Origin: a virus
Virus record (IMG/VR): IMGVR_UViG_3300020582_000003
Span: 1-36,812 of that record
Length of the DNA stretch: 36,812 bases
Strand: one strand, 5' to 3'
Part shown: positions 23,687-36,812 of the stretch, piece by piece
How positions within the stretch are numbered: the first letter of the stretch is position 1
How the letters are laid out: every line of letters starts with the position of its first letter
Made by a program: the position numbers and the translations under genes
Notes under the pieces: generated by a model
The model's database searches: none
Told to the model about the DNA's origin: nothing
Seen by the model: only the letters and a program-made list of their open reading frames with translations

Positions 23687-23866
23687 TCACTTTCTTGTCC
23701 ACTTACTTGGCGCTCTTTCCAAGTCCGCAAGGCGGCGATTGAAACTGCCGAGCCACGTGCCCACTTTGCCGCTCCAGCGCCACAGCCGGTCTATGCGCCA
23801 CGCCAGAATCAGAAGCACCAATATGTTCAGCCCGGCGTAGACCGTGATGGCGCGCTGGAAGTTCAT
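23687..23866 (-). CDS. Small membrane protein, 59 aa
   Basis: A 59-residue protein with a single hydrophobic helix (VYAGLNILVLLILAWRI) and a basic amphipathic tail (WRWSGKVGTWLGSFNRRLA). The start ATG 23866 overlaps the previous stop (ATGA), and it ends 10 nt before the start of the coiled-coil gene, so the two are likely a pair. Function unknown; lysis or virion membrane. Confidence 0.62.
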   Translation of the reverse strand: MNFQRAITVYAGLNILVLLILAWRIDRLWRWSGKVGTWLGSFNRRLADLERAPSKWTRK

Positions 23867-24135
23867 GCCCGCAAAACCTCAAACACGTGCCACACGAAAG
23901 ACTGCTCCCATGGATCAATCACTTGATAGGTGCGCACATACTTAAAATCGCCAGTCCCCATGTCTTGCCCGGTCGGATGAATCTGAAATATGCGCGTAAC
24001 CGGTTTGGCATCGGGATCGACTTTGGCCCAGATACACGGCTTACCGTGCTGCAACTGAACACAGAGAATCTCAGCGCCTTCGGGTATTTCCCACACCGCA
24101 TACGGAAACTCGAATTGGTATTTCCAGATTTTCAC
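23863..24135 (-). CDS. DUF7352-like phage protein, 90 aa
   Basis: A 90-residue beta-rich protein: KIWKYQFEF, then IPEGAEILCVQLQHGKPCIWAKVDPD, and the ending FVWHVFEVLRA. This is the pattern of the DUF7352-type proteins carried by many phages, without known function. The GTG start is the last unit of heptamer array R10. The stop overlaps the next gene. Confidence 0.75.
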   Translation of the reverse strand: MKIWKYQFEFPYAVWEIPEGAEILCVQLQHGKPCIWAKVDPDAKPVTRIFQIHPTGQDMGTGDFKYVRTYQVIDPWEQSFVWHVFEVLRA

Positions 24136-24163
24136 AAGTCACCAGTCACTAGTCACCAGTCAC
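24132..24163 (-). repeat. Heptamer array R10
   Basis: TCAC, AAGTCAC, CAGTCAC, TAGTCAC, CAGTCAC. Read on the minus strand, its final GTGAA is the start of the DUF7352-like gene. The 50 bases between it and the upstream stop (24214) show nothing. Confidence 0.9.
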
Positions 24164-24649
24164 GGGTTGAGCGTGCGCCAAGACTATCCCGGCGAACTGT
24201 GTACGCCGCGCGATCACCCGGCGGTCGAAGTCGGCGGCTCCGGTTTTGGCGCGTAGTCGGCGGCCGGCGGATTCACGCCGAGGCGCTCGAGCGCGCCCGG
24301 CGTCGTCGCTTCCGGGTCCTTGGACGCTCCCGCGAGTTCCGCGATCAATAGCCGCATCTGATCCGCGTCGGCCGTCTCCAGCCGGTTCACCAGCGCCACG
24401 AATTTGATCCCCTTGGCGCTCACGCCTTCCCAAACGCGGAAATTCAGCCCTTGCCAGATCAGCGTCTTGCTCGTGCTCTCGATTGTGGCTTTCATATACC
24501 CCTTTCGTGACTGGTGACTGGTGACTGGTGACTAGTGAACCCCGTAAAGCTACTTCCTGGGCCTGGAACCACTCGTCAGCTTTCCAGACCAGATCGTGCC
24601 CGACCCTCAGAAACAGTTTCCAGAGGAACCGCCGAATTTTGGTCGCCAT
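24149..24649 (-). CDS. Candidate basic membrane-associated protein; C-terminal end doubtful
   Basis: ATG 24649 opens a frame whose first 37 residues (MATKIRRFLWKLFLRVGHDL and so on to EVALRG) look like a real basic, Trp-rich, membrane-binding helix. The frame then passes through heptamer array R11 and runs antisense-like over the 24214-24495 gene. The natural stop may have been lost to array expansion. The first part also overlaps the end of the 24576 gene. Low confidence. Confidence 0.25.
   Translation of the reverse strand: MATKIRRFLWKLFLRVGHDLVWKADEWFQAQEVALRGSLVTSHQSPVTKGVYESHNREHEQDADLARAEFPRLGRRERQGDQIRGAGEPAGDGRRGSDAAIDRGTRGSVQGPGSDDAGRARAPRRESAGRRLRAKTGAADFDRRVIARRTQFAGIVLAHAQPVTGD
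24214..24495 (-). CDS. Small phage-type protein, 93 aa, unknown
   Basis: A 93-residue protein: a beta-rich N-terminal half (TIESTSKTLIWQGLNFRVWE), a helix (ADQMRLLIAELAGAS) and a Pro-rich tail. Similar short proteins (strand, Trp-Glu-Gly, strand, helix) are common in phages and unassigned. ATG 24495. Confidence 0.68.
   Translation of the reverse strand: MKATIESTSKTLIWQGLNFRVWEGVSAKGIKFVALVNRLETADADQMRLLIAELAGASKDPEATTPGALERLGVNPPAADYAPKPEPPTSTAG
24507..24538 (+). repeat. Heptamer array R11
   Basis: GTGACTG three times, GTGACTA, GTGA, plus-strand orientation, between two minus-strand genes. Confidence 0.9.
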
Positions 24650-24839
24650 TGGAAATTCCCTTCCGCCTGGCCACTTCTTTCATCAGCACGTCCCGGATCC
24701 ACGACGATAACGAACGCTGCTCCGACGCTGCATAAGCCTTCCAGTTCGCAATTTCCTGCGGCCGGGCTGAGAAGTTGCAGTAGAGCCATTCGCCCGTGGC
24801 CGTCGTTCGTGGTTTTTGCTGTTTCTTCGCTTTTGCCAT
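24576..24839 (-). CDS. Ribbon-helix-helix-like DNA-binding protein, 87 aa
   Basis: An 87-residue protein with a basic N-terminus (MAKAKKQQKPRTT), a strand (EWLYCNFSA) and two helices (PQEIANWKAYAASEQ, LSSWIRDVLMKEVARR), which is the beta-alpha-alpha plan of RHH repressors. ATG 24839. It is the first gene downstream of the strong promoter and palindrome at 24856-24903, next to the iterons, so an autorepressor or replication/partition regulator is likely. The tail after residue 60 overlaps the candidate at 24649. Confidence 0.72.
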   Translation of the reverse strand: MAKAKKQQKPRTTATGEWLYCNFSARPQEIANWKAYAASEQRSLSSWIRDVLMKEVARRKGISNGDQNSAVPLETVSEGRARSGLES

Positions 24840-24855
24840 TTCCGTTTTTTTCCGC

Positions 24856-24872
24856 CTCTTGCCAGGCAAGAG
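24856..24872. promoter_or_regulatory. Perfect palindrome, operator candidate
   Basis: CTCTTGCC, A, GGCAAGAG: an exact 8+1+8 inverted repeat located between the -10 box and the start codon of the RHH gene, an expected site for autorepression. A related TTGCCAGG...CCTGGCAA pair occurs before the 28495 gene (28498-28530). Confidence 0.6.
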
Positions 24873-24874
24873 AG

Positions 24875-24903
24875 AGTATGCGCGTAACAACGAATATTGT
24901 CAA
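24875..24903 (-). promoter_or_regulatory. Sigma70-type promoter for the leftward small-gene block
   Basis: On the minus strand: -35 TTGACA (perfect; 24903-24898), 17-nt spacer, -10 CATACT (24880-24875). The -35 box is exact and the spacing optimal. It points toward the RHH gene. Confidence 0.65.
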
Positions 24904-25112
24904 GTTCTTTTTAATTACAGTTGTGGAAATGTCGGCTAACCCCTTGCGGGACAGAAAGAAAGAAAGAGAAAGTTAGTGAACTTCGCTCTCCACAGAGTGA
25001 CGAAAATTATCGTGTATTTCTTACCGTGTTTCGTCACTTGGGGGGTGCGGGAGAGAACGGTGGGCTTTGCTATGGAAAACTCGCCGAAGGGACGTGGAAT
25101 CACACACTTGCC

Positions 25113-25289
25113 AAATGCCCACCTAAATGCCCACAAATGCCCAAAAAGCCCAAATGCCCACAGGGGGTGGGCATTTGGAAGCTACTGTGCGCGTTAGAGT
25201 TAGGCTCTAAATGCCCACTTTCCCACTCTCTACGCGCGCGCGCGAGGCAGGACTATGCCTCTTCGCCGTTTCTTCGGGGGTGGGCATTT
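25113..25289. other. AAATGCCCAC iterons, candidate replication origin
   Basis: Seven copies: direct AAATGCCCAC at 25113, 25125, 25135 (last base A), 25152 and 25209, and inverted GTGGGCATTT at 25167 and 25280. Copies at 25152 and 25167 form a palindrome around CAGGGG. The first three are spaced 10-12 bp apart. They occupy most of a non-coding stretch (24904-25287), which also has a purine-rich AGAAAGAAAGAAAGAG run. Iterons near a helicase operon are typical of plasmid and phage origins. Confidence 0.65.
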
Positions 25290-26109
25290 AGACGGGAACA
25301 GACTTGCGGGTGCGGTACGCGGCGGGGCGAGCCCACTTTCGTTGGACAGCCTTCCAATCGTCGGAGTAAATCTTCTCTCCGTCATCGGGCTTGTAGAGCT
25401 GGCAGAAGGGAAGGAATCCGAGTTCGTAAACCCGTTCGATTCGGCGTTCGGCTTCAGCCAGGCTCTCGTCGGGATCGTAACCGATCATCGTGTAGCACCG
25501 CAGTTTGTCGGGCGAGATTCCTTCGACAATTTCCGCCGCGCGCTCGAGGGCGGGCAGCCCACCGGTTAGGTCGCAGGCAAACCACAATTCATCGATGCGG
25601 ATGGAATCAAAGAGGGCGCGATGCCAGCGCCGCAAAAAATCCTTGTCCAGCCCGCCGGGAAACCGAGCCGCGTGGGGCTGGTGGCGCAGCATCTCAAAAA
25701 CGGCTTCGATGTGGCGTTCACTGCACGCGAGTAGGTTGCTGTCCTGGACAATCCACCCGGGATGGATCGGATGGAGTTCGCGCAAAGGGCGGTCTTTCTC
25801 CGGGCACCAGCCGCAGTGCTTCACGCAACCGCGCGACGTAATCGTGCAGCCCAGTTTCAGAAACCGGCCGGGGACAAATTCGTCACCGAGGTCGCCGTAA
25901 GCTGGCCCGCCAATTTTCACGTCATCGTAGTATTGCGACCATGACCGCAGCATCGCTTCCGCGTCACGGCGCCACCATTTGAAACACACACTCATACGCA
26001 GCGGAATCTTACGATCAGCCGGGCGGAATTCCCCAAACGGCGGATAGCCAACGAAGGCGAGAGAATCGTTGGGGGTAAAAGCGGTTCGGTATGGGAACAC
26101 GCGGATCAT
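25288..26109 (-). CDS. Radical SAM protein (phage type)
   Basis: A 273-residue protein with the radical-SAM cluster motif CVKHCGWC (Cys95, Cys99, Cys102), preceded by GCTITSRG and followed by GWIVQDSNLLACSERHIEAVF. It belongs to the group of short radical SAM proteins found in phages; substrate unknown. Expected to bind a 4Fe-4S cluster and S-adenosylmethionine. ATG 26109 is chosen because the family begins MIRVFP; a GTG at 26148 would overlap the helicase stop (GTGA). The stop is inside the last iteron. Confidence 0.82.
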   Translation of the reverse strand: MIRVFPYRTAFTPNDSLAFVGYPPFGEFRPADRKIPLRMSVCFKWWRRDAEAMLRSWSQYYDDVKIGGPAYGDLGDEFVPGRFLKLGCTITSRGCVKHCGWCPEKDRPLRELHPIHPGWIVQDSNLLACSERHIEAVFEMLRHQPHAARFPGGLDKDFLRRWHRALFDSIRIDELWFACDLTGGLPALERAAEIVEGISPDKLRCYTMIGYDPDESLAEAERRIERVYELGFLPFCQLYKPDDGEKIYSDDWKAVQRKWARPAAYRTRKSVPV

Positions 26110-26144
26110 TTGCTGATTCGAGAGAAGAGAATCGGCAGGGACGA

Positions 26145-27641
26145 TCACATTTCCTCGCTGATGCCGGACGCGGTGTACATCGCTAACCCGCCGCGGCCTT
26201 TTTTTCCGCCGCTTACTTTGCGGATCAGGTGCTGCAGGAGCCAGGCCTTGATGCGCCGCTGGGCGCTGGTGCGGGAGATGTTCATCACTTCCATCAGCGT
26301 GCGGATGTTCCACTCTGTGTCCATCTCTTCGATCGCATTCGCCAGGCCGTCGCCATCTTCCAGGGACTCGAGCCGCACCGGGTTCGTGGACGCCAGGTCC
26401 AGGATCATGCGCATGGGATCGACGCTGGGGCCGAGTTTATTGTCCACTTCGATTTCCACGTGGGAGATGTTGCCCGTCATGGTCTTGCGCTTGAACTGGA
26501 TCATCACGTTGGCCCAGCCGGGGAAATTGTAGCTGCCGGCGGCGGCGTTCATCAGGTCCGCGTCTTTTTTGTTTTCGTGGTGGACGAGCACGATGGCCGC
26601 GCCCGTCACGTCCCGGATGGCGTCGATCATTTCCAGGAATTTCGATGTGTCGGTAGGGCTGTTCAGATCCCCGTGGCCTTCGAAGATGCGGCGCAGTACG
26701 TCCAGCACGATCAGGTCGGCCTTGAATTCCACGGCCTGCTTTACCAGCTTTTTGCACCACTGCGGCGTGAAGCCGGTAAAATCCTTGCGCTTCACCACCC
26801 ACACGTTTTCGGGATTGCAGTTCAGGAATTGCGACGTGGACATGAAATCCCGGATGCGCTTCTGGACGATTTGCTCGGGGTCCTCGACCTGCACCAGCAT
26901 GGTGCGGATCGCTTTTTTCACTTCCAGCTTGCCCATGGCGCGGTCCGTCTCCACGGAAGCGGCCAGGGCCAGTCCCGTGGTGAAAAAGCTTTTCATGCGG
27001 TGCGGCAGGGCCACGATCATCACCGAAGCCCCGCGGGGAATTAAACCTTCGATCAAATGCTCCTGCGGCGGGAATTCCATTTTCAAAAAATCGAGCAGGG
27101 AACTGCCCAGATGCCCGTTGCCGTTTCCGTTCCCGTTGGTGGGCAGGAGCGCGCCGGCTTCCATGGTGGCCTTGAACTGTTCTTCTAAATCCTCGGCGCT
27201 TACCGCGCCTTCCATCGCCCTGCGCTGCACGAATTCCGTTTCGCGGATCAGTTTCCGCAGGCGCGCTTTGGTTTGCACGATGTCCGCGTAGTGCGCCAGG
27301 TTGGCGATCGCGGGGCGGCCGTCCATCAGCGCGTCAATGTAGGCGGGGCCGCCGGCGAGCTCCAGCGTCTTGGCCTGAGAAAGCCATTCGATCACGTGGA
27401 TCGAATCCATCGGCAATTCGTCCTCGTGCAGCGCCAGGATGGCGTCATAAATTTTCTTATGATTCACGTGGTAAAAATATTCGGGGACGAGCTTATCGGC
27501 CACGGATTCGAGCGCGGCGCCCGCATCGAGCGGGCGATCGGAGGCTGACAGCAACATAATTCCGCCGAGGATGGCGCGTTCCGCCTCGATGTTGTGGGGA
27601 AGTTCGGGAGCGGTCTGCGCGGCGGCGGCGTTTCGGGGCAT
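26145..27641 (-). CDS. Replicative helicase, DnaB N-domain plus RepA-like ATPase
   Basis: A 498-residue protein. Residues about 12-160 are DnaB-N-like (LPHNIEAERAILGGIML). The RecA/AAA_25-type ATPase follows: P-loop region AlPHRMKS at 211-218, in which the usual last Gly is Met but Lys-Ser are kept; Walker B DLIVLDVL at 309-316; LVHHENKK near 352-359. The C-terminal 55 residues look like a winged helix (NISRTSAQRRIKAWLLQHL). It should unwind DNA at the origin. ATG 27641 overlaps the previous stop by one base (TGATG); an upstream start at 27665 is unlikely. Confidence 0.86.
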   Translation of the reverse strand: MPRNAAAAQTAPELPHNIEAERAILGGIMLLSASDRPLDAGAALESVADKLVPEYFYHVNHKKIYDAILALHEDELPMDSIHVIEWLSQAKTLELAGGPAYIDALMDGRPAIANLAHYADIVQTKARLRKLIRETEFVQRRAMEGAVSAEDLEEQFKATMEAGALLPTNGNGNGNGHLGSSLLDFLKMEFPPQEHLIEGLIPRGASVMIVALPHRMKSFFTTGLALAASVETDRAMGKLEVKKAIRTMLVQVEDPEQIVQKRIRDFMSTSQFLNCNPENVWVVKRKDFTGFTPQWCKKLVKQAVEFKADLIVLDVLRRIFEGHGDLNSPTDTSKFLEMIDAIRDVTGAAIVLVHHENKKDADLMNAAAGSYNFPGWANVMIQFKRKTMTGNISHVEIEVDNKLGPSVDPMRMILDLASTNPVRLESLEDGDGLANAIEEMDTEWNIRTLMEVMNISRTSAQRRIKAWLLQHLIRKVSGGKKGRGGLAMYTASGISEEM

Positions 27642-28495
27642 CAGTGGCCGCACATTCCGAGGCATTCGCCTGCGAAGTTTAGATCAGACTGTGCGGCCCG
27701 CGGATCAGTGGAAGCGATAAACTCAATCGATTCGAGAGGCTGGCATGAACGATGCAGATACATCGTCTCGTCCATCTTTCGATTTGCCACGATTCCGGGC
27801 ATCCTCAATGCGCGGTCGATTTCTATGGCGCGCGCCCAATCGCTAGGACTTTTCTTGAGTTCGATCCATTCGTTGTCATCGTGGAAGGGACAAAATACGC
27901 AAGCGGAGCGGGGAACTTCGTGGGGGACATTCCGGCGTAAAAACTCGGAGCATTGGCTCCGCGTGATATGCATGTCGATCAGCGGAAAGTGTCTATGGAT
28001 ATATTTCGGCGGTTTCTTTCCTTTATGCTCCAAGCGCCATGCGCGGCCGGATTCATTCAGCGAAAAACCGATATAGACATGAACGATCACGCCCTTACGA
28101 ACACGTTGTCTGGGTTTGAGTCCCAACACTTCTTGTCGCAACGCTTGGCCGATCACTTCCAGTTTGTATTCCTTCGTGCACTGACGTTTCGTTTTAGAAA
28201 CGCGTTGGCCGTCCGTGGTGAAAGCGGGAATCGATGCGAACCGTTGGCCAGTGGAATTACACCCGCGAACCAGATGATCGCCCAGCTTCCCTTTGGTGCG
28301 CACGATAATCGGCGGCCCATTGAGAGATTTCAGCCATTCAAGGTGTGCGTAGGTAAGCTTTGATTCTTCTTGCGTGTCGGCGGTGATTGCGGCGTCAAGC
28401 TTTACGGGGATTCGGCCTTGCATGAACATCAGATAAAGCGTAGTGGATTGGACGCCGGCGCCTAAATTCAAAACGTGATATTCCGATTGGGCCAT
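27641..28495 (-). CDS. PAPS-reductase-like / PP-loop protein
   Basis: A 284-residue protein of the phosphoadenosine phosphosulfate reductase/adenine nucleotide alpha-hydrolase superfamily. The PP-loop LGAGVQSTT is at residues 11-19, RQCTKEYK near 105-112 and SACVFCPFHDDNEW at 197-210 with a CxxC pair. Phage members are common and poorly understood; relation to DndC-type sulfur chemistry on DNA is possible but not shown. It is co-transcribed with the helicase and the radical SAM gene. The leader holds junction hairpin I and a TTGCCAGG inverted repeat (28498-28530). Confidence 0.82.
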   Translation of the reverse strand: MAQSEYHVLNLGAGVQSTTLYLMFMQGRIPVKLDAAITADTQEESKLTYAHLEWLKSLNGPPIIVRTKGKLGDHLVRGCNSTGQRFASIPAFTTDGQRVSKTKRQCTKEYKLEVIGQALRQEVLGLKPRQRVRKGVIVHVYIGFSLNESGRAWRLEHKGKKPPKYIHRHFPLIDMHITRSQCSEFLRRNVPHEVPRSACVFCPFHDDNEWIELKKSPSDWARAIEIDRALRMPGIVANRKMDETMYLHRSCQPLESIEFIASTDPRAAQSDLNFAGECLGMCGH

Positions 28496-28553
28496 GGTTG
28501 CCAGGACGAAACCGGGGCGCCGCCTGGCAAGGTTGAGCGCCCCAGCTTCTTTC

Positions 28554-28588
28554 TTACCGCGAAAGCGCCCCTTACCGGGGCCTTTCGC
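28554..28588 (-). repeat. Junction hairpin, copy I
   Basis: Perfect consensus on the minus strand: arms GCGAAAG/CTTTCGC and GCCCC/GGGGC, loop GGTAA, unpaired G, then GGTAA. It lies 58 nt upstream of the start of the PAPS-reductase-like gene, with the orientation of the gene. Confidence 0.9.
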
Positions 28589-28728
28589 TCTAACGAACTT
28601 GATCGTTCGCGCGCGGCGCGCACGACAAGCGGAGACGAAGCTACGGTATTCCTAGTACGCGGTCAAGAAAAAATAGGCGGCTGTGTCCAAAGAGTTTGTG
28701 GAAAAGCTGTGCGGAAGTGGGAAAAGAC

Positions 28729-28893
28729 CTAGTAGCGGATGATGACGGCACTCTCTTCGGCGTCATATTCAATTACGGTTTCATCCGTGATGCTGAATCC
28801 AAAATAGGGGTCGATGGTCTCAATTGCGACAGGTTTGTCTTGCGGAAGGGATTTCAGTCGTTCAATCAGTTCTGCAACGGTCAATGGTTTCAC
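28729..28893 (-). CDS. Small acidic protein, 54 aa
   Basis: A 54-residue protein: a helix (TVAELIERLKSLPQDKPVAI) then acidic strands (FGFSITDETVIEYDAEES). The GTG start is the last unit of heptamer array R12. The pattern (LTVAELIERLK...P.D.PV) is frequent in small phage proteins. The 28589-28728 stretch after it shows only a DnaA-box-like TTTTCCACA (minus strand, about 28696-28704) and a CGAAC/GTTCG inverted repeat. Confidence 0.65.
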   Translation of the reverse strand: MKPLTVAELIERLKSLPQDKPVAIETIDPYFGFSITDETVIEYDAEESAVIIRY

Positions 28894-28921
28894 GAGTCAC
28901 CAGTCACGAGTCACGAGTCAC
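28890..28921 (-). repeat. Heptamer array R12
   Basis: TCAC, GAGTCAC, CAGTCAC, GAGTCAC, GAGTCAC. The minus-strand terminal GTGAAA is the start of the 54-aa gene. Confidence 0.9.
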
Positions 28922-28930
28922 GAAATAATT

Positions 28931-29035
28931 CGCCCCGCGCGATGGTCGAACCACCTAAGGCGCGGGGCGGTCAAAGAGGCTTGCTACTGCCTATCCCCTT
29001 GAAATCTACCCGGTGCACGGTTTCCCGTGCACCGG
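28931..29035 (-). ncRNA. Structured RNA candidate: two perfect hairpins
   Basis: Minus-strand RNA would contain an 11-bp perfect stem (arms at 29010-29020 and 29025-29035) closed by a GAAA tetraloop, then a second hairpin with a perfect 10-bp outer stem (28931-28940 with 28960-28969), a CTTA bulge and an inner GGTGGT/ACCATC stem with a TCG loop. It fills the gap between the 29050 gene and array R12. GNRA loop and stem perfection favour function in RNA; a terminator lacks a T-run here. Confidence 0.5.
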
Positions 29036-29049
29036 AGGAAAGAGTACAC

Positions 29050-29256
29050 CTAGACGGGCCGAACTACAACGCCTTCGACGTAAACAGGCGTCTTGCATCG
29101 CAGACAATACGTGTATCCGATGGGGATTCTTCGCCCGACGTAGTGCAGTATCATGCCGGGCATCGGCACGTCGCGCGAAGGGATTTCGATAATCATGTCA
29201 TCGCGGATCACCGCGTCGTGTGCCTTGAAAGCGCAAACGAGCCAAGCGAGCTTCAC
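29050..29256 (-). CDS. Small zinc-ribbon-like protein, 68 aa
   Basis: A 68-residue protein: LAWLVCAFKAHD at the N-terminus, a middle with DMIIEIPSRD and GRRIPIGYTYCLRCKTPVYV, so one CxxC pair plus an early Cys. The GTG start is the last unit of heptamer array R13. Similar short proteins (CAFKAHDW...CxxC) occur in phages. Function unknown. Confidence 0.65.
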   Translation of the reverse strand: MKLAWLVCAFKAHDAVIRDDMIIEIPSRDVPMPGMILHYVGRRIPIGYTYCLRCKTPVYVEGVVVRPV

Positions 29257-29291
29257 GGGTCACCAGTCACCAATCACTAGTTACGAATCAC
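29253..29291 (-). repeat. Heptamer array R13
   Basis: TCAC, GGGTCAC, CAGTCAC, CAATCAC, TAGTTAC, GAATCAC. Read on the minus strand, the upstream gene's TGA stop (29290-29288) lies in the first unit and the next gene's GTG start (29256) in the last. Confidence 0.92.
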
Positions 29292-30601
29292 ACCACGCCC
29301 GCGCTCGGCGTGGCGGCTTTTTCCAGTTCGGCGTTTTCCTTGGCGATCTTCAGAAAATCCTCGATGATCGCCGGGAGGCGCGGATCGTCGGCCACTTCCG
29401 TCAGGAGGGCGGCGCCGAAGTATTGCATCTGCGCTTCGCGGCTCTTGAAGAACGCCAGTAGCTGTTCCTTGGAAAACTTTACCAGCTCGTCCAGGATTTC
29501 CGGCCAAGCGTTGCGCAGGTAGTCGTACATATCCTGCCCGGTGGATTTTGGATTCTTGATGCCCATCACCAAACGATGCAGGTGGGACTGCGAGATGATC
29601 GCCTGCGCCACTTCCGGCGTGACGGCGGTGGATTCCGAGGAAGGAGCCGCGGCGACGGTGGAATTGGCACCGTTGGCGACCGCCGCGGCCTGGGGGGCAG
29701 GAGAAGGCGCCACATCGATCACGTTCGGATCGCCCGGCTTCATCTCGCCGCGCTGCAGGCGCACGGTGCGCTCCTGCGCTTCGGACGTTTTTCGGAATTC
29801 GCTGAGTCCCTGCACCATACGATCCACCAGCATGGGCAGATTGGACGCGAACGTCGACGCCAAATCCGCCTTGGGCACGCCGCTGGCGATCAGCCCGGAA
29901 GTTTTCAGCGTGGTGATCAGTCCCAAAAGTTCATCGATACCCTTTTTCTCAGGCGAGCCGATGACACCCAGTTCTTTAAGCACGCGAATCGTATTGAGCA
30001 GATCATGCTCGCCATTTCCCCCGCCGAGGATTTCTTTCGCCGCGCGCAAAGTCTCCAGCGGATTCTGAGGGGTGGGGATTTGGCTCTTCATTAGAGCCAT
30101 CGCTTCCGTGGCAGCGGTGATCATCATTTGCATCTGCATGCGCACAAATTCCGGATTGCCGTACATGCGCATAGCTTCGAGGGCGACAGACTCGGAACCT
30201 GTCGCCCCGTTTCCGTTGCGCGGCACGCTGTTCACGATGGGCTGGCCCTCGAGCTCCAGAGTGTAGCGGCCCACGAGAGTCTGCTTTTTCGGCGGGCCGT
30301 ACAGCCACAGTAAGTATTTTCCGCCACCGAAGCGCGCGCGCACATCTTCCTCTGTAAAAGGGGCAGTGAACGTGTTGTCGACGGGCGCGGCCCCGCGGTC
30401 CCACTTTTCGCCGGCGCGATATACGCGCATGATGTGCTCGGTCCACTGCTCTTTTGTGAGGGAGTTTACGACTACATCCAAGTCTCGATCGTAGAATTCG
30501 GCGGCTCGTGCTTCACCGGAAGCACCACGCGGCGGCAAAACTTCGGATTCGATCGTCTTGCGAAACCGTGTTCCGGGTGCGGGTTGCGTCATGGTTCCCA
30601 C
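29288..30601 (-). CDS. Large soluble protein, 437 aa, role unknown
   Basis: The N-terminal third has a region with FGGGKY at residues 91-96 and a following strand-rich stretch (LLWLYG, TLVGRYTLELEG). Then come Met-rich helices (RMQMQMMITAATEAMALMK), a Gly-rich loop, long helices and a Pro/Ala linker, and a helical C-terminal part. There is no signal or membrane segment. It could be a scaffolding, DNA-binding or virion-interior protein. It is the first gene of the leftward early-type operon, with a good divergent promoter upstream. Confidence 0.75.
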   Translation of the reverse strand: MGTMTQPAPGTRFRKTIESEVLPPRGASGEARAAEFYDRDLDVVVNSLTKEQWTEHIMRVYRAGEKWDRGAAPVDNTFTAPFTEEDVRARFGGGKYLLWLYGPPKKQTLVGRYTLELEGQPIVNSVPRNGNGATGSESVALEAMRMYGNPEFVRMQMQMMITAATEAMALMKSQIPTPQNPLETLRAAKEILGGGNGEHDLLNTIRVLKELGVIGSPEKKGIDELLGLITTLKTSGLIASGVPKADLASTFASNLPMLVDRMVQGLSEFRKTSEAQERTVRLQRGEMKPGDPNVIDVAPSPAPQAAAVANGANSTVAAAPSSESTAVTPEVAQAIISQSHLHRLVMGIKNPKSTGQDMYDYLRNAWPEILDELVKFSKEQLLAFFKSREAQMQYFGAALLTEVADDPRLPAIIEDFLKIAKENAELEKAATPSAGVV

Positions 30602-30636
30602 TCTAAAATCCTCATTTCTCCTGCCAGGTATCGGCT

Positions 30637-30665
30637 AGTAAAGCACAGAGAAACCCGATTGTCAC
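30637..30665 (-). promoter_or_regulatory. Sigma70-type promoter for the 30601 gene
   Basis: On the minus strand: -35 GTGACA (5 of 6), 17-nt spacer, -10 TTTACT (4 of 6), 36 nt before the ATG. This 100-bp divergent region also carries the start of the virion operon, for which I see no convincing promoter. Confidence 0.4.
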
Positions 30666-30711
30666 CCTTACAAGCGATTGCCGCAATCATTGGAGTAAAT
30701 GATTGAACACA

Positions 30712-31593
30712 ATGACATTACTCTTTCGCGCAGCGATGACGAGGTGCACGATGCACCCCATGGGAATTTTTACGACCGAGGCGCCCGGAGTTTTGTATTC
30801 CGCGGCGCTGCAATCCGGCGATGACGGCACGGCGCAAACCATCGCCATGCTGCGCAACCTCGTGGACTCCGCATGGAAAGACCCGTTAGTCAATCGCACC
30901 GCCATCGAAATCATCCGCAACGCCGGCGTGCAGCCCTTCGACCTGTGGGGCCAGGTGCGCGCGATTTACAATTACGCGCGCTCGTTCTACTTCGTGAACG
31001 ATCCCATCACCAAGGAAGCCGTCCGCCCCACGCGCGACCTTCTGGAACTGAAAGCCGGGGACTGCGACGACATCAACGGAAATGTTTTGCCCGCGTTACT
31101 TGGCACGATTGGATTTGAAGTGCGCCTCGTCACCGTGGCCAGCGACCCGAACATGCCCGACGTTTTCTCGCACGTCTATTGCGAAGCCTTCATTGATGGC
31201 CAGTGGTACCCCCTGGACGCCGCGCGCCCGAACGCCACGATCGGCGTAGCGCCGTCGTTCTTCTATCGCCGCGCCTGGTGGAGTCTCTCCGACGATTCCT
31301 ACGGCGACTACTCGAGCGACGAAGCCGGTCAAATGGCCGGGTATCGCCCGCAAACGGTACGCGGACTCGGCAGCGTCACTTCCGATGTGGCCGCGATCCT
31401 CACGGACGCATCCGGCGCGCTGAAATCCGTGGGCGGGCAGACGGTGCAGCAAGTGCTCGGCCCGGCGATCGGCCCCGGCGGAAGCGCGCAGATGACGCCG
31501 CCGGCCGCGCAGCCGTTTCTTTCCAGCGGTATCGGCGAATTGCTGGTGGTGGGCGCGATCGTCGGTGGCCTATGGCTCTTGTTCAAAGACTGA
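30712..31593 (+). CDS. Transglutaminase-like protein with C-terminal membrane anchor
   Basis: A 293-residue protein with the transglutaminase/cysteine-protease fold: AGDCDD (Cys118), FSHVYCE (His154), WYPLDA (Asp169) give the triad. An RGLG motif follows near residue 215, and the protein ends with a hydrophobic segment (GELLVVGAIVGGLWLLF) and KD. It may process or cross-link the membrane-anchored virion proteins encoded after it. The start could be ATG 30712 or ATG 30760. A separate 41-residue frame from ATG 30699, with a better ribosome site (GGAGT), overlaps it. Confidence 0.78.
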   Translation: MTLLFRAAMTRCTMHPMGIFTTEAPGVLYSAALQSGDDGTAQTIAMLRNLVDSAWKDPLVNRTAIEIIRNAGVQPFDLWGQVRAIYNYARSFYFVNDPITKEAVRPTRDLLELKAGDCDDINGNVLPALLGTIGFEVRLVTVASDPNMPDVFSHVYCEAFIDGQWYPLDAARPNATIGVAPSFFYRRAWWSLSDDSYGDYSSDEAGQMAGYRPQTVRGLGSVTSDVAAILTDASGALKSVGGQTVQQVLGPAIGPGGSAQMTPPAAQPFLSSGIGELLVVGAIVGGLWLLFKD

Positions 31594-31595
31594 TC

Positions 31596-32522
31596 ATGGC
31601 TTACGCCGCACTCTCAACGCGAAACGAAAACGGGATGACTCCCGGACTGCGCGGCCTCGGCTTCCTCGGCGATTCGTCTCTGCCACTTTCTCCCACCGAC
31701 GCGATCAATGCCGCGATCAAAGCCTATTCCGGTTCACACCTGAATCCCAAGCAAACGCAAAATCAAGCCTGGCTCGCCGCGGCGGAATCCGCCGTGGCCA
31801 ACGCCAATATCGACGTGACCGGCGGATTCGGCCCGGACTGCACCGGGCAAACCGCGCAGCCGCTGAATCTTTTGCAGACGGCCAGCGGCATTGGACTGAG
31901 CGCGGCGGGCGCGACAACGGGCGTCCTCGCCGCCACCAGCTTGATTCCCGCGGCGGCGGTGCCCGTGGTGGGCTGGGTGATCGCCGGCGTCGGCGCGATC
32001 ATCGGCATGATCGAAGCGATTTTCCAGCATCACGCGCAGGCCGTGAAGCGCGACCTGGCTTTCGGCTGCTCGGCGATCCCCGCGGTAAACAACGCCATGG
32101 CCGTGATCATCAAGGGCGTGCAGGACGGAAATATCCTGCCCGCCGACGCGGCGAATTCGTTGCAAACGGTTTACTCGCAGTTCATGGCGGCGGGCGGGGC
32201 GTCGGGCAGCGCGTCCGGCCCGGGCGGAATTCCAAGCGGCGGCAAAGCCATCAACGATTCGCCGTTCTGCAATTCCAATTGCGAGCTGAGCCTCGTGGTG
32301 TACGCCATGGTCCTCTACTGGACCGCGCAATTCCAGGCGCAGGCCGCGCAAGCGGCAGCCGTGGCTGCGGAATCCGCCGCACAGAGCGGCACATCGCAGG
32401 GCGGGTCCGGCGTTCCGGGCATCTTTGCGCCAGCGCCTGCGGGCGCTTCCGGATTGTCCGCGATTCCCGCATGGGCATGGATCGCGCTCGCCGTAGCCGG
32501 CGCCTGGGCGGTGGCCGGATGA
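31596..32522 (+). CDS. Membrane virion-type protein, 308 aa, RGLG motif
   Basis: The N-terminus MAYAALSTR then GLRGLG is shared with the next genes. Residues about 88-145 are long, hydrophobic and Gly/Ala-rich (two segments, IPAAAVPVVGWVIAGVGAII), and the Ala/Gln-rich C-terminal part ends with a final hydrophobic helix (AWAWIALAVAGAWAVAG). Two Cys pairs are present. It starts two bases after the previous stop. This is the kind of layout expected for an inner-membrane virion protein. Confidence 0.68.
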   Translation: MAYAALSTRNENGMTPGLRGLGFLGDSSLPLSPTDAINAAIKAYSGSHLNPKQTQNQAWLAAAESAVANANIDVTGGFGPDCTGQTAQPLNLLQTASGIGLSAAGATTGVLAATSLIPAAAVPVVGWVIAGVGAIIGMIEAIFQHHAQAVKRDLAFGCSAIPAVNNAMAVIIKGVQDGNILPADAANSLQTVYSQFMAAGGASGSASGPGGIPSGGKAINDSPFCNSNCELSLVVYAMVLYWTAQFQAQAAQAAAVAAESAAQSGTSQGGSGVPGIFAPAPAGASGLSAIPAWAWIALAVAGAWAVAG

Positions 32523-32525
32523 TTT

Positions 32526-32557
32526 TCACCAGTCACCAGTCACCAGTCACCAGTCAC
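32526..32557 (-). repeat. Heptamer array R14
   Basis: TCAC plus four perfect CAGTCAC units between the 31596 and 32572 genes, in minus-strand orientation although both genes are on the plus strand. Confidence 0.9.
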
Positions 32558-32571
32558 GGGGTTTCTTCCTG

Positions 32572-32904
32572 ATGGCCTACGCGCGGCTCAATACGCGAAA
32601 CATCAATGCGCTACACCCTAACCTGCGGGGACTCGGCGCGTACGCCGCGCTATCGACGCGCGAGGATGCGGGCTTGCGGCCGGGCATGCGTGGCCTCGGC
32701 GATTCGCCGCTGACGAATATTTCCTTCGGCCCGGGCGGGCAGTTCGCCATCAGCACGGCCACGGTGCCCACGCAGACGAGCCTTTGGGATCAGGCACTGA
32801 CGTGGATGGGGCAGTCGACGTTCATTCCCGGCATGCCTAATTCGATTTTCGCCATCGCCGCGGGAGTTTTTGTCGTGGCCAAAGTTTTCGGAGGGCGCCG
32901 CTAG
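32572..32904 (+). CDS. Small tail-anchored protein with duplicated RGLG motif
   Basis: A 110-residue protein. The motif is present twice: MAYARLNTRN...LRGLG and then AYAALSTRE...MRGLGDS (residues about 24-44), the second copy being closer to the previous gene's N-terminus. A Gly/Ser/Thr-rich linker follows, and it ends with a hydrophobic segment (SIFAIAAGVFVVAKVF) and GGRR. The signal is probably a targeting or interaction tag. Confidence 0.68.
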   Translation: MAYARLNTRNINALHPNLRGLGAYAALSTREDAGLRPGMRGLGDSPLTNISFGPGGQFAISTATVPTQTSLWDQALTWMGQSTFIPGMPNSIFAIAAGVFVVAKVFGGRR

Positions 32905-32921
32905 GCCCCGGTAAGGGGCCT
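32903..32921 (+). repeat. Junction hairpin, copy J (short form)
   Basis: AGGCCCC/GGGGCCT with loop GGTAA; only the inner stem remains. It overlaps the stop codon of the previous gene and is 12 nt before the ATG at 32934. Confidence 0.78.
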
Positions 32922-32933
32922 CGGATATAAAAG

Positions 32934-33713
32934 ATGGCATACGCTGCGCTAGACTCGCCGCTTCCCGGACTCACCGTTTCGCCCACGGGCGAGCGGTGCT
33001 GTGGAGTCCGCGGCTATCAGCCCGGCGCGCACGCGCTGCTCGGCATGCTGGGCGACACTCCGATTTTCGATACATCGTCCACCGATCCTACAGGCAGCCT
33101 GATCGATCCCACCGCCATCGATCAGCCAGCGCCGATCATCGACCTGACGCCGCCCGTCGAAACGCTTCCGCCGATCGTTGACACCACGGCGCTGCCGCTG
33201 CCGAATCAGCTTTCCCCATCGGTTTATTCCAGCTATCCCTCGAGCGTGGGCACGGAGTTCACCAGCAACGGCGATGGCACCTACACGAACATTCAGACGG
33301 GCCAGACGGTTCCTTACAACATCGCCGAACAAATCAGCGCGGCCACGGCGGGCGCGCCGGCGGTGGATACCACGGCCACGGGACAGAACCTGACCATCAC
33401 CGATGCCAGCGGCGCGACGTCGAGCGTCAACACGAACAACCTCACCGTGGCGGCGCAGGCGCTGCAGGCCGCCGGCCAGCTCGTGAACGCCGCTGGAAAA
33501 CTCACGGCGCAAGGCCAGGCGCTCTTGAACGGCGGAAATCTGTACAAGCCCGCTCCGGTGAGCACGAATCCGTTTTCCGGCGCCATGAGTTCGCTGACGT
33601 CATGGTTTTCCGGTTCCACTGGCGGCTTCCCGAACGTGGCGATCCTGGGCGTAGGACTCGCGGCGGTGTTCATCCTTCCGTCGATGATGTCCGGAAAAAA
33701 GAGGCGACGGTGA
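32934..33713 (+). CDS. Tail-anchored virion-type protein, 259 aa
   Basis: The N-terminus MAYAALDSP leads to GYQPGAHALLG and LGD, a motif also in the 34336 gene. Then comes a long Thr/Pro/Ala-rich middle (residues about 60-190). It ends with a hydrophobic segment (NVAILGVGLAAVFILPSMM) and a GKKRRR tail. Positive charges after the segment suggest the end lies on the cytoplasmic or, in a virion, the DNA side. Preceded by hairpin J. Confidence 0.7.
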   Translation: MAYAALDSPLPGLTVSPTGERCCGVRGYQPGAHALLGMLGDTPIFDTSSTDPTGSLIDPTAIDQPAPIIDLTPPVETLPPIVDTTALPLPNQLSPSVYSSYPSSVGTEFTSNGDGTYTNIQTGQTVPYNIAEQISAATAGAPAVDTTATGQNLTITDASGATSSVNTNNLTVAAQALQAAGQLVNAAGKLTAQGQALLNGGNLYKPAPVSTNPFSGAMSSLTSWFSGSTGGFPNVAILGVGLAAVFILPSMMSGKKRRR

Positions 33714-34336
33714 TAGCAATAAACGACGTTCGCCTTGGTGCCGCGCTTTCCGTCGATCCGCTCGCGCGGATGTCCCCGCCGGATTATCGAATCATGCAGC
33801 CAAGCCCGATTCGCACGTTTCCCGTCACAGCGGCGCCGCCCACGGCTACGCCGCCGGAACCGCTGCAAAAGCCCGTGCCGCCGATCGAAGTCGGCGCGCC
33901 GATTCAAGTATCCACGGGATCGACGGGGGGATCGACGGGGGGATCGACGGGCGCGCCCGCATCTGGCGCGCTGCCCATCGACGTTTCAAACATCATCGAT
34001 CCCGTCACGGGAGTGACCTACGCGGGATATCTCACGCAGGACGCGCAAACGCTTTACCAATCCGGCTCGCTCCTAACCGGCGGAAATGTACTCACGCCGC
34101 AAGGATCCGCACTGGCCGCACAGGGGGACTTGATTCAGGGCACGCCCGCGCCCTCGCCCGCGCAATTTGCGCAAGCGCAACCTGCGGCCGCGGCGCCTGG
34201 CACGGATTTCTTTTCTTCCCTGATGAATTGGCTCACGGAGGAAACGCTGTGGACCGGCGTGCCCAACGGAGTCCTGGCCGCCGGCGGCGTAATCGCCGCG
34301 TCCTGGATGTTCGGGAAGAAACGAGGGCGCCGCTGA
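33710..34336 (+). CDS. Tail-anchored virion-type protein, 208 aa
   Basis: The GTG start overlaps the previous stop by four bases. The N-terminus is Pro-rich (residues about 20-65); a tandem Gly-Ser-Thr-Gly repeat comes from 12-bp repeats (about 33919-33952). A Gln/Ala-rich linker follows, and it ends with a hydrophobic segment (GVLAAGGVIAASWMF) and GKKRGRR. It resembles the 32934 protein in its second half (GGNVLTPQGSALAAQG versus KLTAQGQALLNGGN), so the two may be paralogues. Confidence 0.7.
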   Translation: MIAINDVRLGAALSVDPLARMSPPDYRIMQPSPIRTFPVTAAPPTATPPEPLQKPVPPIEVGAPIQVSTGSTGGSTGGSTGAPASGALPIDVSNIIDPVTGVTYAGYLTQDAQTLYQSGSLLTGGNVLTPQGSALAAQGDLIQGTPAPSPAQFAQAQPAAAAPGTDFFSSLMNWLTEETLWTGVPNGVLAAGGVIAASWMFGKKRGRR

Positions 34337-35157
34337 TGCTGTTCCCGAATCATCCCGCATATGCTGAGATTCGCGCCGGCATGGGCGACCTGGGATATCA
34401 GCCGGGCGCGCACGCACTCTTGGGTTACACCGCGCCCGCGCATGATCTTGGGGACTTCTCCGCATCGATGGAAAACGCCGCCGTTGACGCGGGCTATTCC
34501 ATTAACGACATTCAACTTTTGAACGCGCTGGGCGCGACGGATCAGGATTTGACGAACCTGATCAATGGCAACATCACGCTCACCGCGCTCTACGCGCAGT
34601 ACGGCGTCACGATTCCCGGCGGCGGTGGAGTCGTTCCCACTACGGCCACAAACACGCCCGTGACGCCCGCATCGGCCTCGATTACGCCCGCGCCGCCATC
34701 GCAGCCGCAGGGCCAGCTTCCCACCGGCAGCCAGTTCAGCTACACCGGCGGATGGAGCCCGATTCACGGCAGCGTGGGCGACGTCCAAGCGGCGCTCAGT
34801 TCCAAACTGCCGGGCAGCGGCATGCAGCTCGTGGCGTTCAACTCCACGGGATCATCGCTGCTGGGCGTGGGCACGGCGGGATTCACGGCTACAGTCGCCG
34901 TCACGGGCGTAGGCTTCGCGCTACTCAGCGATGCGCAATCCATCGTGGTGACCATCGTGCAAAGCGTGATCGGCACGGGCAACCTGACCACGAATCAGAT
35001 TTCGCTCGTTTCCACGCCGTCGACGCCCGCGGCAGTGGCCGCCGCAAACGCAGCGGCGGGCAATCCGATCGTCTGGCTCGAATCGAACGCCATCTACATC
35101 GCCGCGGCGGTCGCGGGTTTGGTTTTTCTGAACAATTTCACGGGGAAGCGCCGATGA
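34336..35157 (+). CDS. Tail-anchored virion-type protein, 273 aa
   Basis: The start overlaps the previous stop by one base (TGATG). The N-terminus contains GYQPGAHALLG (also in the 32934 gene) and a short helix-rich part with LLNALGATDQDLTNLING. A Pro/Thr linker leads to a domain (SPIHGSVGDVQAALSSKL) rich in strands, and the protein ends with a hydrophobic segment (AIYIAAAVAGLVFLNNF) and TGKRR. It may be a trans-envelope or vertex protein. Confidence 0.7.
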   Translation: MLFPNHPAYAEIRAGMGDLGYQPGAHALLGYTAPAHDLGDFSASMENAAVDAGYSINDIQLLNALGATDQDLTNLINGNITLTALYAQYGVTIPGGGGVVPTTATNTPVTPASASITPAPPSQPQGQLPTGSQFSYTGGWSPIHGSVGDVQAALSSKLPGSGMQLVAFNSTGSSLLGVGTAGFTATVAVTGVGFALLSDAQSIVVTIVQSVIGTGNLTTNQISLVSTPSTPAAVAAANAAAGNPIVWLESNAIYIAAAVAGLVFLNNFTGKRR

Positions 35158-35210
35158 CTTCACATCCGAAACCGCACCATCATCCAGCACCCGTACATAA
35201 GGAGAAAGCC

Positions 35211-35420
35211 ATGAAGATCGAAGAGTTTCAACCCGGCGATGAAGTGCTCGTCAATGAAGGCGGCAGCGAAATCGAGGGCGTAGTGCGCTCCATCCAACTG
35301 GTCAAGAATCTGGTGGACGTGCAGCTTTACAAGCAAGGCCACCTGAAACACGGACTGACCGTGGCGTTCCCGCCGGAACAGGTGAAATTGCGCAGCCACG
35401 AAAAGGCGGCGAGCGCCTAG
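35211..35420 (+). CDS. KOW/SH3-like small protein, 69 aa
   Basis: A 69-residue protein with a beta-barrel-like pattern: FQPGDEVLVNEGGSEIEGVV, then VDVQLYKQG and FPPEQVKL. ATG 35211 has AAGGAG 7 nt upstream. A longer form from ATG 35154 (88 aa, His-rich start) would overlap the preceding stop as ATGA. It probably binds nucleic acid or a protein partner. Confidence 0.65.
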   Translation: MKIEEFQPGDEVLVNEGGSEIEGVVRSIQLVKNLVDVQLYKQGHLKHGLTVAFPPEQVKLRSHEKAASA

Positions 35421-35423
35421 TGA

Positions 35424-35485
35424 GCAAAAGGCCCCGGTAAGCCTTCGGCAAGAAGGCTCAGGCTAAAGGGGCGCTTTTGCGGTGA
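35424..35485 (+). repeat. Junction hairpin, copy K, with loop insertion
   Basis: Arms GCAAAAG/CTTTTGC and GCCCC/GGGGC, unpaired G at 35473, loop GGTAA plus the same 27-nt insertion as copy D, then GGTGA. The GGTGA includes the possible GTG start (35482); ATG 35494 follows. Confidence 0.9.
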
Positions 35486-35493
35486 AACTGACC

Positions 35494-36246
35494 ATGCCAC
35501 GAGCGAAGAAAAATCCGTCGGAACTGGTGCTCATGGGCGCCAATCCCTCGGAGCTCGTGGTGATGGGCGGTAACCCTGGAAAGGTTTCACTTCGCCAAGT
35601 GAAGGAAGCCGAACGTGCCTACGCATCATCGGTGAGTACATGGGGTGAGCACGATCAGGGGACACAGCGCCTTCATTCGAGATGGTGGGACTTGCGACGC
35701 GCCTATGAATCTCAGACGGGAAAAAAGTTATATCAGCTAAACCCTAGTAACGGCATTGAAGGCGCATCGCAACTGTACCAAGAATTCCACGGCGAGCCGG
35801 GCAAGCACGTGGACACCTACATCGAACCGGAGCCGCGCCCCGCGAATCTGGGCCAGCTCGGAGTGCTGCGCAAATTGCAGGTGAAGCGCACCGGCGGATG
35901 GAAGTGGGGCGAATTCGATTTCATCGGCAAGGATGTGCAGGTCGCGGGCAACGTCGGCCACTCGCAGATTTATTTCGTGGGCGGGGATCAGAAAGTGACG
36001 CGCGGGCAACTGACGCACCTGGGCGTGGACAATTCCAAGGAAATGATCGACCTGGGCGAGTGCATGGAAATCGAGTACCGCGCGAAAAAGGCGCACGTAG
36101 ACGGGATCGAGAGCAACTACTACCACCAGTTTGGAGACGTCACGGGCCGCCGTCCCCGGCTCATGTACGACCGCCGCGGCCCGCAAGGACGCCTGTTTCT
36201 GGTGGGCGGGGAATACACGATCGAACCGGAAGGAATCGTGAATTGA
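35494..36246 (+). CDS. NPSEL-repeat protein, 250 aa
   Basis: The N-terminus has three copies of an N-P-(S/G) motif: NPSELVLMGA, NPSELVVMGG, NPGKVSL. A helical part follows (EAERAYASSVSTWGEHDQ, RWWDLRRAYESQTGKKL), then a beta-rich C-terminal domain (WGEFDFIGKDVQVAGNVGHS; IYFVGGDQKVTRGQLTHLG). The repeat may be a protein-binding tag. I have the impression that similar N-termini occur in environmental phage contigs; function unknown. ATG 35494 chosen; GTG 35482 is the alternative. The stop overlaps the next start as TTGA. Confidence 0.7.
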   Translation: MPRAKKNPSELVLMGANPSELVVMGGNPGKVSLRQVKEAERAYASSVSTWGEHDQGTQRLHSRWWDLRRAYESQTGKKLYQLNPSNGIEGASQLYQEFHGEPGKHVDTYIEPEPRPANLGQLGVLRKLQVKRTGGWKWGEFDFIGKDVQVAGNVGHSQIYFVGGDQKVTRGQLTHLGVDNSKEMIDLGECMEIEYRAKKAHVDGIESNYYHQFGDVTGRRPRLMYDRRGPQGRLFLVGGEYTIEPEGIVN

Positions 36247-36446
36247 TTTCTCTGTCATTGATCTCGGCGATTACTCTCACGCTTGCGATTGGCGCGGCTT
36301 TAGGCTTTCTTTTCGCGCTCTGGGTTATTCGGCGAGCGGTGAAAACGGATCGTGCTACGCGGGACCGGTTCAGTCAGTTCATTGACAAATATTCGAGTCC
36401 TGAAGAATTCGATGGAAGGGAAGAGCCAAATGCTCGCGGGAACTGA
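36243..36446 (+). CDS. Small single-pass membrane protein, 67 aa
   Basis: The TTG start overlaps the previous stop (TTGA). The first 28 residues are hydrophobic (LSLISAITLTLAIGAALGFL), followed by a basic then acidic cytoplasmic part. It overlaps the next gene by 17 bases. Function unknown. Confidence 0.65.
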   Translation: MISLSLISAITLTLAIGAALGFLFALWVIRRAVKTDRATRDRFSQFIDKYSSPEEFDGREEPNARGN

Positions 36447-36812
36447 ACACGGAATTAGCAAGGCCAACATCGTCACGGGCGCGGACAAGGATCTCGATTT
36501 GTGCCTGCGCATCAGCCGCGAACGCATGCGCGCGGGCCCGCGCAAGGGCTACAACATTTTCGGCAGGATCGAGACGATCTATTTTGAGCCGGACCGCGAT
36601 TGCCGCATGCCTCTACACAAAGCAGCCAAAGTCGGGCGGCGGCTGTACTGGCCAGAAAACGGTCCCACGCTGGCAATCTCGATTCCTGAAAGCGATTTGC
36701 TGATTCCGTCGCGTTTGCCACTTCGCAGAGGGCTGGCCGCGTTGCCGGATGTTCCCGATCCGGAGCATCCGGCGGCGAATCCCTACGACGTGGACCAATA
36801 CGGGCAATCGCA
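36430..36812 (+). CDS. 5' part of gene spanning the circular join; unknown protein
   Basis: ATG 36430 begins the 249-residue protein that continues at position 1. The N-terminal 85 residues are basic, with SKANIVTGADKDLDLCLRIS and a proline-rich loop later. Its end in this record is artificial: the last 127 bases duplicate 1-127. See the 1-494 entry for the rest. Confidence 0.8.
   Translation, partial: MLAGTEHGISKANIVTGADKDLDLCLRISRERMRAGPRKGYNIFGRIETIYFEPDRDCRMPLHKAAKVGRRLYWPENGPTLAISIPESDLLIPSRLPLRRGLAALPDVPDPEHPAANPYDVDQYGQS
36686..36812. repeat. Terminal direct repeat, copy 2 (circular overlap)
   Basis: Identical to 1-127; should be removed to obtain the 36,685-bp circle. Confidence 0.93.

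Follow-up and report, generated by a model that had tools for sequence, protein, structure and literature searches.

The window analysed in this study, the whole 36,812-base IMG/VR virus record IMGVR_UViG_3300020582_000003, carries on its + strand a cassette of six consecutive genes (A to F, positions 30712 to 35157) whose products end in a hydrophobic segment and, in all but E, bear a short shared peptide, hereafter the tag. The tagged cassette is conserved in relatives, and therefore it is not a product of chance. It is very probable that its proteins belong to the virion or serve its assembly, in a virus that shows no recognisable hallmark of tailed phages. A more specific proposal, to which we give about even weight, is that they are virion membrane tethers of a tailless virus family of the internal-membrane type. 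The C-terminal segment would anchor each protein in an internal viral membrane, a flexible linker, mostly rich in P, T, A, S, and G, would bridge membrane and shell, and the tag (ending in RGLG or GLG-D/Q/E, or reading GYQPGAHALLG) would dock on a common site of the shell. Tandem copies of the tag would add avidity, and the N-terminal domain would point towards the shell with the basic tail inside. Only a few cultured viruses have shown how an icosahedral shell keeps a fixed distance from an internal membrane. At least 20-odd uncultured genomes of these soil-type viruses now provide a repeated, sequence-defined candidate contact, present in one to three copies and kept in distant relatives. 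Peptides and recombinant capsid proteins suffice to test it for docking or cleavage, so that no cultured host is required. Virus-encoded, C-terminally anchored proteins that connect shell and membrane are already known. In the available text of the literature searched, we found no description of a repeated tag common to an enzyme, membrane proteins, and a capsid-block protein, and recognised no paper describing the present virus family.

Relatives were first found by a scan with the P-loop-like protein encoded at 19494-21890, and 12 records were read, comprising 10 complete-looking genomes of 34-37.5 kb (the near clade), one fragment (G012), and one distant genome (G011). All 10 complete near relatives have genes A, B, C, D, and F, and nine have E, with the order kept; in G007, E found its best match in the D reading frame. 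Distant relatives, 37-42% identical in the putative major capsid protein, retain a transglutaminase-like gene and, behind it, tail-anchored proteins that bear the tag. The first 127 bases of the window are identical to the last 127, and a terminal repeat of exactly this length was also found in five of the 12 other records examined (G001, G004, G005, G006, and G009) and in one of a second set of eight (G016). A repeat as long as an assembler word usually points to a circular molecule, and the record appears to be a complete circular virus genome. On this circle, the + strand order is A-B-C-D-E-F, 35160, 35494, 36352..494, 491-1057, 1155, 2167, 2821, 3575, 4394 and onward, which places the cassette immediately upstream of the capsid block and in the same orientation.

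Profile scans of IMG/VR gave 30 loci for the 3575 protein, 25 for the transglutaminase of gene A, and 27 for the capsid candidate (1155). With the five weakest transglutaminase loci left out (E >= 8e-8; mostly on large contigs) and two capsid-candidate loci of one contig merged, there remained 20 contigs with the transglutaminase, 26 with the capsid candidate, and 30 with the 3575 protein, in a union of 31. Each of the 20 contigs that have a clear cassette transglutaminase carries the capsid candidate and the 3575 protein as well. Six capsid-candidate contigs had no transglutaminase match, and the three that were inspected (L176, L177, and L187) all have a GDCDD or GDCED protein followed by tagged tail-anchored proteins.

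Gene A (30712..31593; orthologues in all complete near relatives) encodes a transglutaminase-like domain recognised by Pfam, an internal tag, and a C-terminal hydrophobic anchor; its true start is probably 30760, because the relatives begin there. Gene B (31596..32522) encodes a tag, a central hydrophobic segment (residues 120-136), and a C-terminal anchor, and gene C (32572..32904) encodes two tandem tags, a C-terminal module with PGMPN, and an anchor. In the product of gene D (32934..33713), a MAYAAL start is followed by the tag, a P/T/A/S-rich linker, and an anchor. Gene E (33710..34336) has a GTG start and encodes no tag, while its C-terminal module is that of C and D; gene F (34336..35157) encodes a tag, a middle region, and an anchor.

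An earlier, sequence-only reading of this DNA had claimed a terminal hydrophobic segment for six consecutive genes and an added basic tail for four of them, and both claims were borne out. By a Kyte-Doolittle cut-off (17 amino acids, mean >=1.6, segment near the C-terminus), five of the six cassette proteins passed, compared with one of the 26 other window proteins scanned (Fisher p=0.00017), and E fell just below the cut-off. In the near clade, every cassette protein tested had a C-terminal hydrophobic segment, with the lowest 15-residue mean in B (1.48) and values of at least 1.71 in the others. The basic tails are those of C (GGRR), D (GKKRRR), E (GKKRGRR), and F (TGKRR), with mean net charges after the segment of +2.9, +4.8, +4.4, and +2.9, respectively; A and B have no such tail (charge ~0). 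The one other protein that passed, a lytic transglycosylase (13457..14023, + strand; Pfam SLT, 1.7e-27), had been described as having the same layout, and it does have the C-terminal hydrophobic anchor, but neither a basic tail nor a tag.

The C-terminal module common to C, D, and E (C-E z=10.4, D-E z=7.4, C-D p=0.030) reads W(M/L/F)..(S/E)T...G.PN, followed by the hydrophobic segment and KKRR, and the PN word before the segment recurs in distant cassettes as IPGVPN, FPSIPN, or ISGIPN. The middles of the cassette proteins are rich in P, T, A, S, G, and Q. None of A-F has a hydrophobic segment in the N-terminal region, i.e., a signal peptide. Searches of the cassette against Pfam, PHROGs, and NCBIfam recognised only A, and outside the cassette the SLT protein; weak PHROG tail-protein matches of D (0.015) and F (0.021) covered low-complexity stretches and were rejected. 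Several transmembrane proteins encoded by the virus, some adjoining the capsid block, are a feature of tailless internal-membrane dsDNA viruses (PRD1-adeno type lineages, including single jelly-roll forms), and the window has them in A-F, the SLT protein, and a conserved 188-residue protein that adjoins the capsid block and, by reading, contains hydrophobic stretches (491..1057, + strand; BLAST matches in 10 of 12 relatives searched).

The tag occurs in two wordings. The first, AYAxLSTRNxxGLxPxxRGLG, is found once in B (AYAALSTRNENGMTPGLRGLG, 31599..31661) and twice in C (tag 1, AYARLNTRNINALHPNLRGLG, 32575..32637; tag 2, AYAALSTREDAGLRPGMRGLG, 32638..32700), and the second, GYQPGAHALLG, in D (33012..33044) and F (34393..34425; one to three tandem copies in relatives), all on the + strand. 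Shared N-terminal words had been proposed for the whole cassette; this stands for B, C, D, and F, while E has none and A only an internal form (GYRPQTVRGLG, 31339..31371, + strand) between the enzyme domain and the anchor. The duplication of GYQPGAHALLG assigned to C proved mistaken, as C duplicates AYAxLxTR...RGLG. Since the peptide of A combines both wordings, it suggests a single consensus, G-(L/Y)-x-P-x(2-4)-(R/H)-x-L-G.

In local alignments of the N-terminal 70 amino acids against shuffles, chance was a poor explanation for B-C (z=12.1), C against itself (z=12.7), and D-F (z=8.6), and lower scores were obtained for B-D (p=0.010) and C with the middle of A (p=0.033); the remaining 11 of 15 cassette pairs gave p>0.05. 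When B, C, D, and F were compared with the other window proteins, none of the 104 pairs reached p<=0.01. A motif search in related viruses, as the sequence-only reading had recommended, located the tag by regular expression in 39 of 65 cassette proteins from 11 genomes, compared with 0 of 197 orthologues of other window genes. By gene, the counts were 7/11 for A, 8/11 for B, 11/11 for C, 5/11 for D, 0/10 for E, and 8/11 for F, against a shuffled expectation of 0-0.15 copies per gene set.

The tag extends to the distant clade, for which 37 cassette and 29 control proteins were picked by hand. The expression [RHQASM]G[LMIW][GA][DQE] occurs there 13 times in the cassette proteins (shuffles 1.76, maximum 5 in 200), five times in seven homologues of the 3575 protein (0.16 in shuffles), and twice in the controls (1.27 in shuffles); 13 of the 37 cassette proteins lack a match even to the looser [RHQASLM]G[LMI]G. 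The 3575 protein is encoded in the capsid block (3575..4288, + strand), and its distant homologues carry the tag at the N-terminus, in tandem in G013 (RFNPRVPLAGLGD...RFNPRVPLAGLAD) and as degenerate repeats in G014 and G015. By reading, these tagged homologues have no anchor, indicating that the tag is not part of a membrane signal.

The codons of the tag copies were compared for words chosen for peptide identity, a choice that under-counts replaced codons. Of the 11 codons of the D/F word, five are the same, six synonymous, and none replaced, and in the eight-residue word of B and C the values are three, five, and none. Tandem copies in F gave six same, four synonymous, and none replaced in each of G005 and G006; two, six, and one, and three, five, and one in G007. 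The tandem of the 3575 homologue in G013 gave six, six, and one. Over the full length of tags 1 and 2 of C, eight of 21 codons are synonymous and nine replaced. The many synonymous differences between identical peptides show that the copies are old and that selection maintains them as peptides, and an origin as DNA repeats was rejected on the same grounds. The shared tag noticed in the sequence-only reading is thus a real, selected peptide.

Gene A is a member of the transglutaminase-like superfamily with an intact Cys-His-Asp set, as judged from its sequence. Pfam Transglut_core (PF01841) matched it at E=8e-7 (29.8 bits, cut-off 23) and its distant members at 47-55 bits, and the Cys (GDCDD), His (FSH), and Asp columns are invariant in 14 sequences. 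The best candidate for the major capsid protein is the putative capsid protein of 254 amino acids encoded at 1155..1919 (+ strand), because it is the most conserved protein, as expected of a major capsid protein, with 84-98% identity to near relatives and 37-40% to distant ones. Its N-terminal arm contains LAAGLGDF in the near clade. This word was considered as proof of a tag on the capsid and dropped; distant homologues read AGQLEY there, and the likeness may be a coincidence. Possible capsid paralogues were observed far from the capsid block at 14702-15322 in the window, at 6905-7528 in G007 (47% identical to the 14702 protein), and at 24358-24711 in G008; phmmer similarity of the latter two to the capsid candidate was 9.5e-7 and 2.3e-8, respectively.

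Two further capsid-block proteins on the + strand are predicted beta-sandwiches, namely 2167..2655 (AlphaFold2 mean predicted local distance difference test score 70.6) and 2821..3324 (59.0; disordered N-terminal arm). They were set aside as main capsid proteins, the 1155 protein being far better conserved. The best VIA-align matches of the two models were non-capsid sandwiches, at Z 9.0 (root-mean-square deviation, rmsd, 2.7; 101 residues aligned) and Z 8.6 (rmsd 2.6; 92 aligned), followed at Z ~7.0-7.5 by single jelly-roll capsid proteins of several viruses and HHIV-2 chain b (6h82_b: Z 7.4, rmsd 3.7, 115 aligned). The models are therefore compatible with jelly-roll capsid proteins, the vertical form of which is the major capsid fold of tailless internal-membrane viruses, but this is not proof. 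Foldseek and VIA-align gave no clear capsid relative for the capsid-block models; P23-77 proteins were not among the structure matches listed, which proves nothing. Profiles of the putative ATPase, 2815, 2167, the transglutaminase, and the capsid candidate gave nothing useful against solved chains, and a 7rgv match of the ATPase profile was dismissed, as it covers the low-complexity tail. This possible packaging ATPase is the P-loop-like protein (19494..21890, - strand; GxTQxSGKTT and VIVPEAQDF), which has no Pfam match and whose P-loop-like and Walker-B-like columns are invariant in 11 sequences; the packaging ATPase of tailless internal-membrane viruses is of the HerA/FtsK type. Among 20 window proteins and the capsid candidate, no terminase, portal, or HK97-fold/tailed-phage capsid protein was detected by Pfam or PHROGs, and the sole hint of a tailed phage is a weak terminase PHROG match of the ATPase.

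Several observations weigh against the proposal of membrane tethers. The terminase match occurs in four of 11 ATPase members (best E 0.012), and the jelly-roll likeness is weak, as best Z scores of 7-9 are equally reached by unrelated beta-sandwiches. Protein E has no tag, the letters of the tag vary between genes and between clades, and the regular expressions were written after the sequences had been seen. In addition, the positive-inside rule would put the basic tails on the cytoplasmic side, which counters a tail inside the vesicle. Export of N-terminal domains of up to ~250 residues without a signal peptide is difficult, and these long domains favour the suggestion of the sequence-only reading that the basic tail touches the DNA, whereas the positive-inside rule disfavours it. 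An extension of the tether proposal, which we regard as unlikely, is that one tandem-repeatable peptide word (Phi-x-G-L-G-D/Q, with a G-Y-x-P...L-G form) serves as an assembly code. It would bring the enzyme, the tail-anchored proteins, and the capsid-block protein, which have unrelated folds, into a single groove of the shell that the arm of the major capsid protein (LAAGLGDF in the near clade) would also occupy, so that the tags mimic the arm.

Docking and processing are the two leading readings of the tag. Under the second, the chief rival, assembly would include a maturation cut at the tag, perhaps made by gene A as a cysteine protease, and release of the N-terminal part would activate the proteins; we consider this a minority possibility, albeit the most serious one. 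Gene A stands first in the cassette, its catalytic columns are invariant, its Pfam score exceeds the cut-off, and its own tag sits between enzyme and anchor. Moreover, LRGLG and MRGLG fit the first of the adenovirus protease rules, (M/I/L)XGX|G or (M/I/L)XGG|X, as given in the available part of PMC4246237. However, FRGLG and GYQPGAHALLG (HALLG) fall outside them, the residue after GLG varies (F, A, D, S, Q, E, or T), tandem copies would be redundant for cleavage, the stretch upstream of RGLG is conserved like the rest, and no Ulp1-type protease was recognised in the searches. The adenovirus maturation system also pairs a cysteine-protease-fold enzyme with a Gly-rich word in many virion proteins (PMC4246237, available part), whereas the enzyme of the window belongs to the transglutaminase family according to Pfam.

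The proteins might instead not be virion parts and act at a host membrane during assembly, entry, or exit, with the tag recruiting them to each other or to a host partner. The host envelope could be a target of two enzymes, the SLT protein and gene A, but the tag is also present on the 3575 homologues of the capsid block, and the cassette lies upstream of that block on the same strand and strictly co-occurs with it, which makes this role rather improbable. A further reading, in which gene A has genuine transglutaminase activity and cross-links the tagged proteins among themselves or with the shell, is very unlikely. The fold, the invariant catalytic columns, and the co-occurrence of gene A with tagged proteins are consistent with it; on the other hand, most bacterial members of the superfamily are proteases, and the tags have no consistent Gln or Lys, so that cross-linking of the tags themselves was discarded. 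The module of motif, hydrophobic segment, and KKRR in C, D, and E also resembles a sorting signal (LPXTG, PEP-CTERM, or GlyGly-CTERM type) cut by a host sortase-like enzyme. Such a signal requires an N-terminal hydrophobic signal, of which A-F have none, and NCBIfam gave no sorting-signal match for A-F; this explanation was rejected for the lack of signal peptides and is hardly credible.

The proposed tethers have counterparts in known systems, as far as the available text of the cited papers shows. In HCIV-1, a virus of the vertical single beta-barrel, internal-membrane archaeal group that includes HHIV-2, the shell is organised on the membrane by VP13 and VP10, proteins with a transmembrane helix at the C-terminus, and VP7 docks below VP4 through its N-terminal residues (PMC6414509). 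Small C-terminal-helix proteins under pentons and capsomers, and a short N-terminal peptide beneath a neighbouring capsid protein, are thus points of likeness to the cassette proteins and to the proposed docking. In contrast, the capsid-block profiles of the window match no solved chains, its family has a circular 34-38 kb genome and a transglutaminase-like gene, and the available text on HCIV-1 describes no repeated tag common to several proteins (PMC6414509). In PRD1 and PR772 (Tectiviridae), the single-helix membrane protein P16 clamps the shell to the membrane via a partly disordered segment, and in PR772 it anchors the vertex complex (PMC6750898, available part). The P16 helix is printed there as Leu7-Ala28, near the N-terminus, although the text of the paper calls it C-terminal, and the window proteins have no detectable sequence relation to the phage collection. 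The transmembrane proteins P3 and P6 of PM2 (Corticoviridae) have been suggested as templates that register capsomers on the membrane (PMC6356626, available part); this likeness is by description, not sequence, and the same part mentions no common tag.

Six window proteins or profiles (ATPase, 3575, A, 2167, capsid candidate, and C) had no relative in 50,697 phage records, and the ATPase and the capsid candidate had none in 72,556 plasmids. A scan of GTDB genomes with the P-loop-like profile gave a single distant match, an 18.9 kb contig (L092) of a Proteobacteria metagenome-assembled genome in which neither the 3575 protein nor the transglutaminase was found. Of 40 records retrieved with the ATPase profile and searched with both, the 3575 protein matched eight and the transglutaminase six. 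Contigs of up to 103 kb (L082, 102,896 bp; L084, 93,289 bp) carry a P-loop-like relative without either and represent a wider group of elements having this gene in common; the ATPase relationship was rejected as the sole definition of the family, since most ATPase-profile contigs have neither gene.

Between cassette and capsid block, a conserved gene for 275 amino acids spans the record ends (36352..36812 continuing to 494, + strand; BLAST matches in 10 of 12 relatives searched). The gene at 35494..36246 (+ strand), adjoining the cassette, encodes a tandem N-terminal motif of its own (NPSELVLMG/NPSELVVMG; self-repeat z=8.1), the second such motif of the window, KKNPSELVLMGANPSELVVMGGNP. NPxEL(V/M/L)VM words recur in its near and distant homologues, and the motif is possibly another recruitment tag.

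Among 20 window proteins, Pfam and PHROGs recognised the transglutaminase-like and SLT proteins, a VanY/M15 peptidase, a DNA methylase, a DnaB-type helicase, and a PAPS-reductase-like protein. The gene for the last (27641-28495; phrog_424, 1.4e-32) has no orthologue in the 12 related records read, and it was therefore probably acquired recently. Heptad repeats, (GTGACTG)n, of ~35-40 nucleotides are dispersed in both orientations between genes or at gene ends (2660, 3324, 10655, 11682, 13139, 22452, 22887, 23130, 24115, 24503, 28873, 29236, and 32523). They are nearly private to this genome, as their 15-nucleotide word occurs 10 times in the window versus 0-2 times in 20 related records. A palindromic repeat, AGCGAAAGGCCCCGGTAAGGGGCGCTTTCGCGGTAA, dispersed at 1065, 2011, 2783, 4288, 4334, 10621, and 28554 (variants at 3506 and 35429), also occurs in some near relatives and possibly represents terminators or mobile hairpins. 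Finally, two large, secreted-looking, fibre-like proteins are encoded at 5570-7873 and 7846-10314; their 300-nucleotide starts are 85% identical and their remainders variable in relatives, and in this they resemble exchangeable receptor-binding modules.

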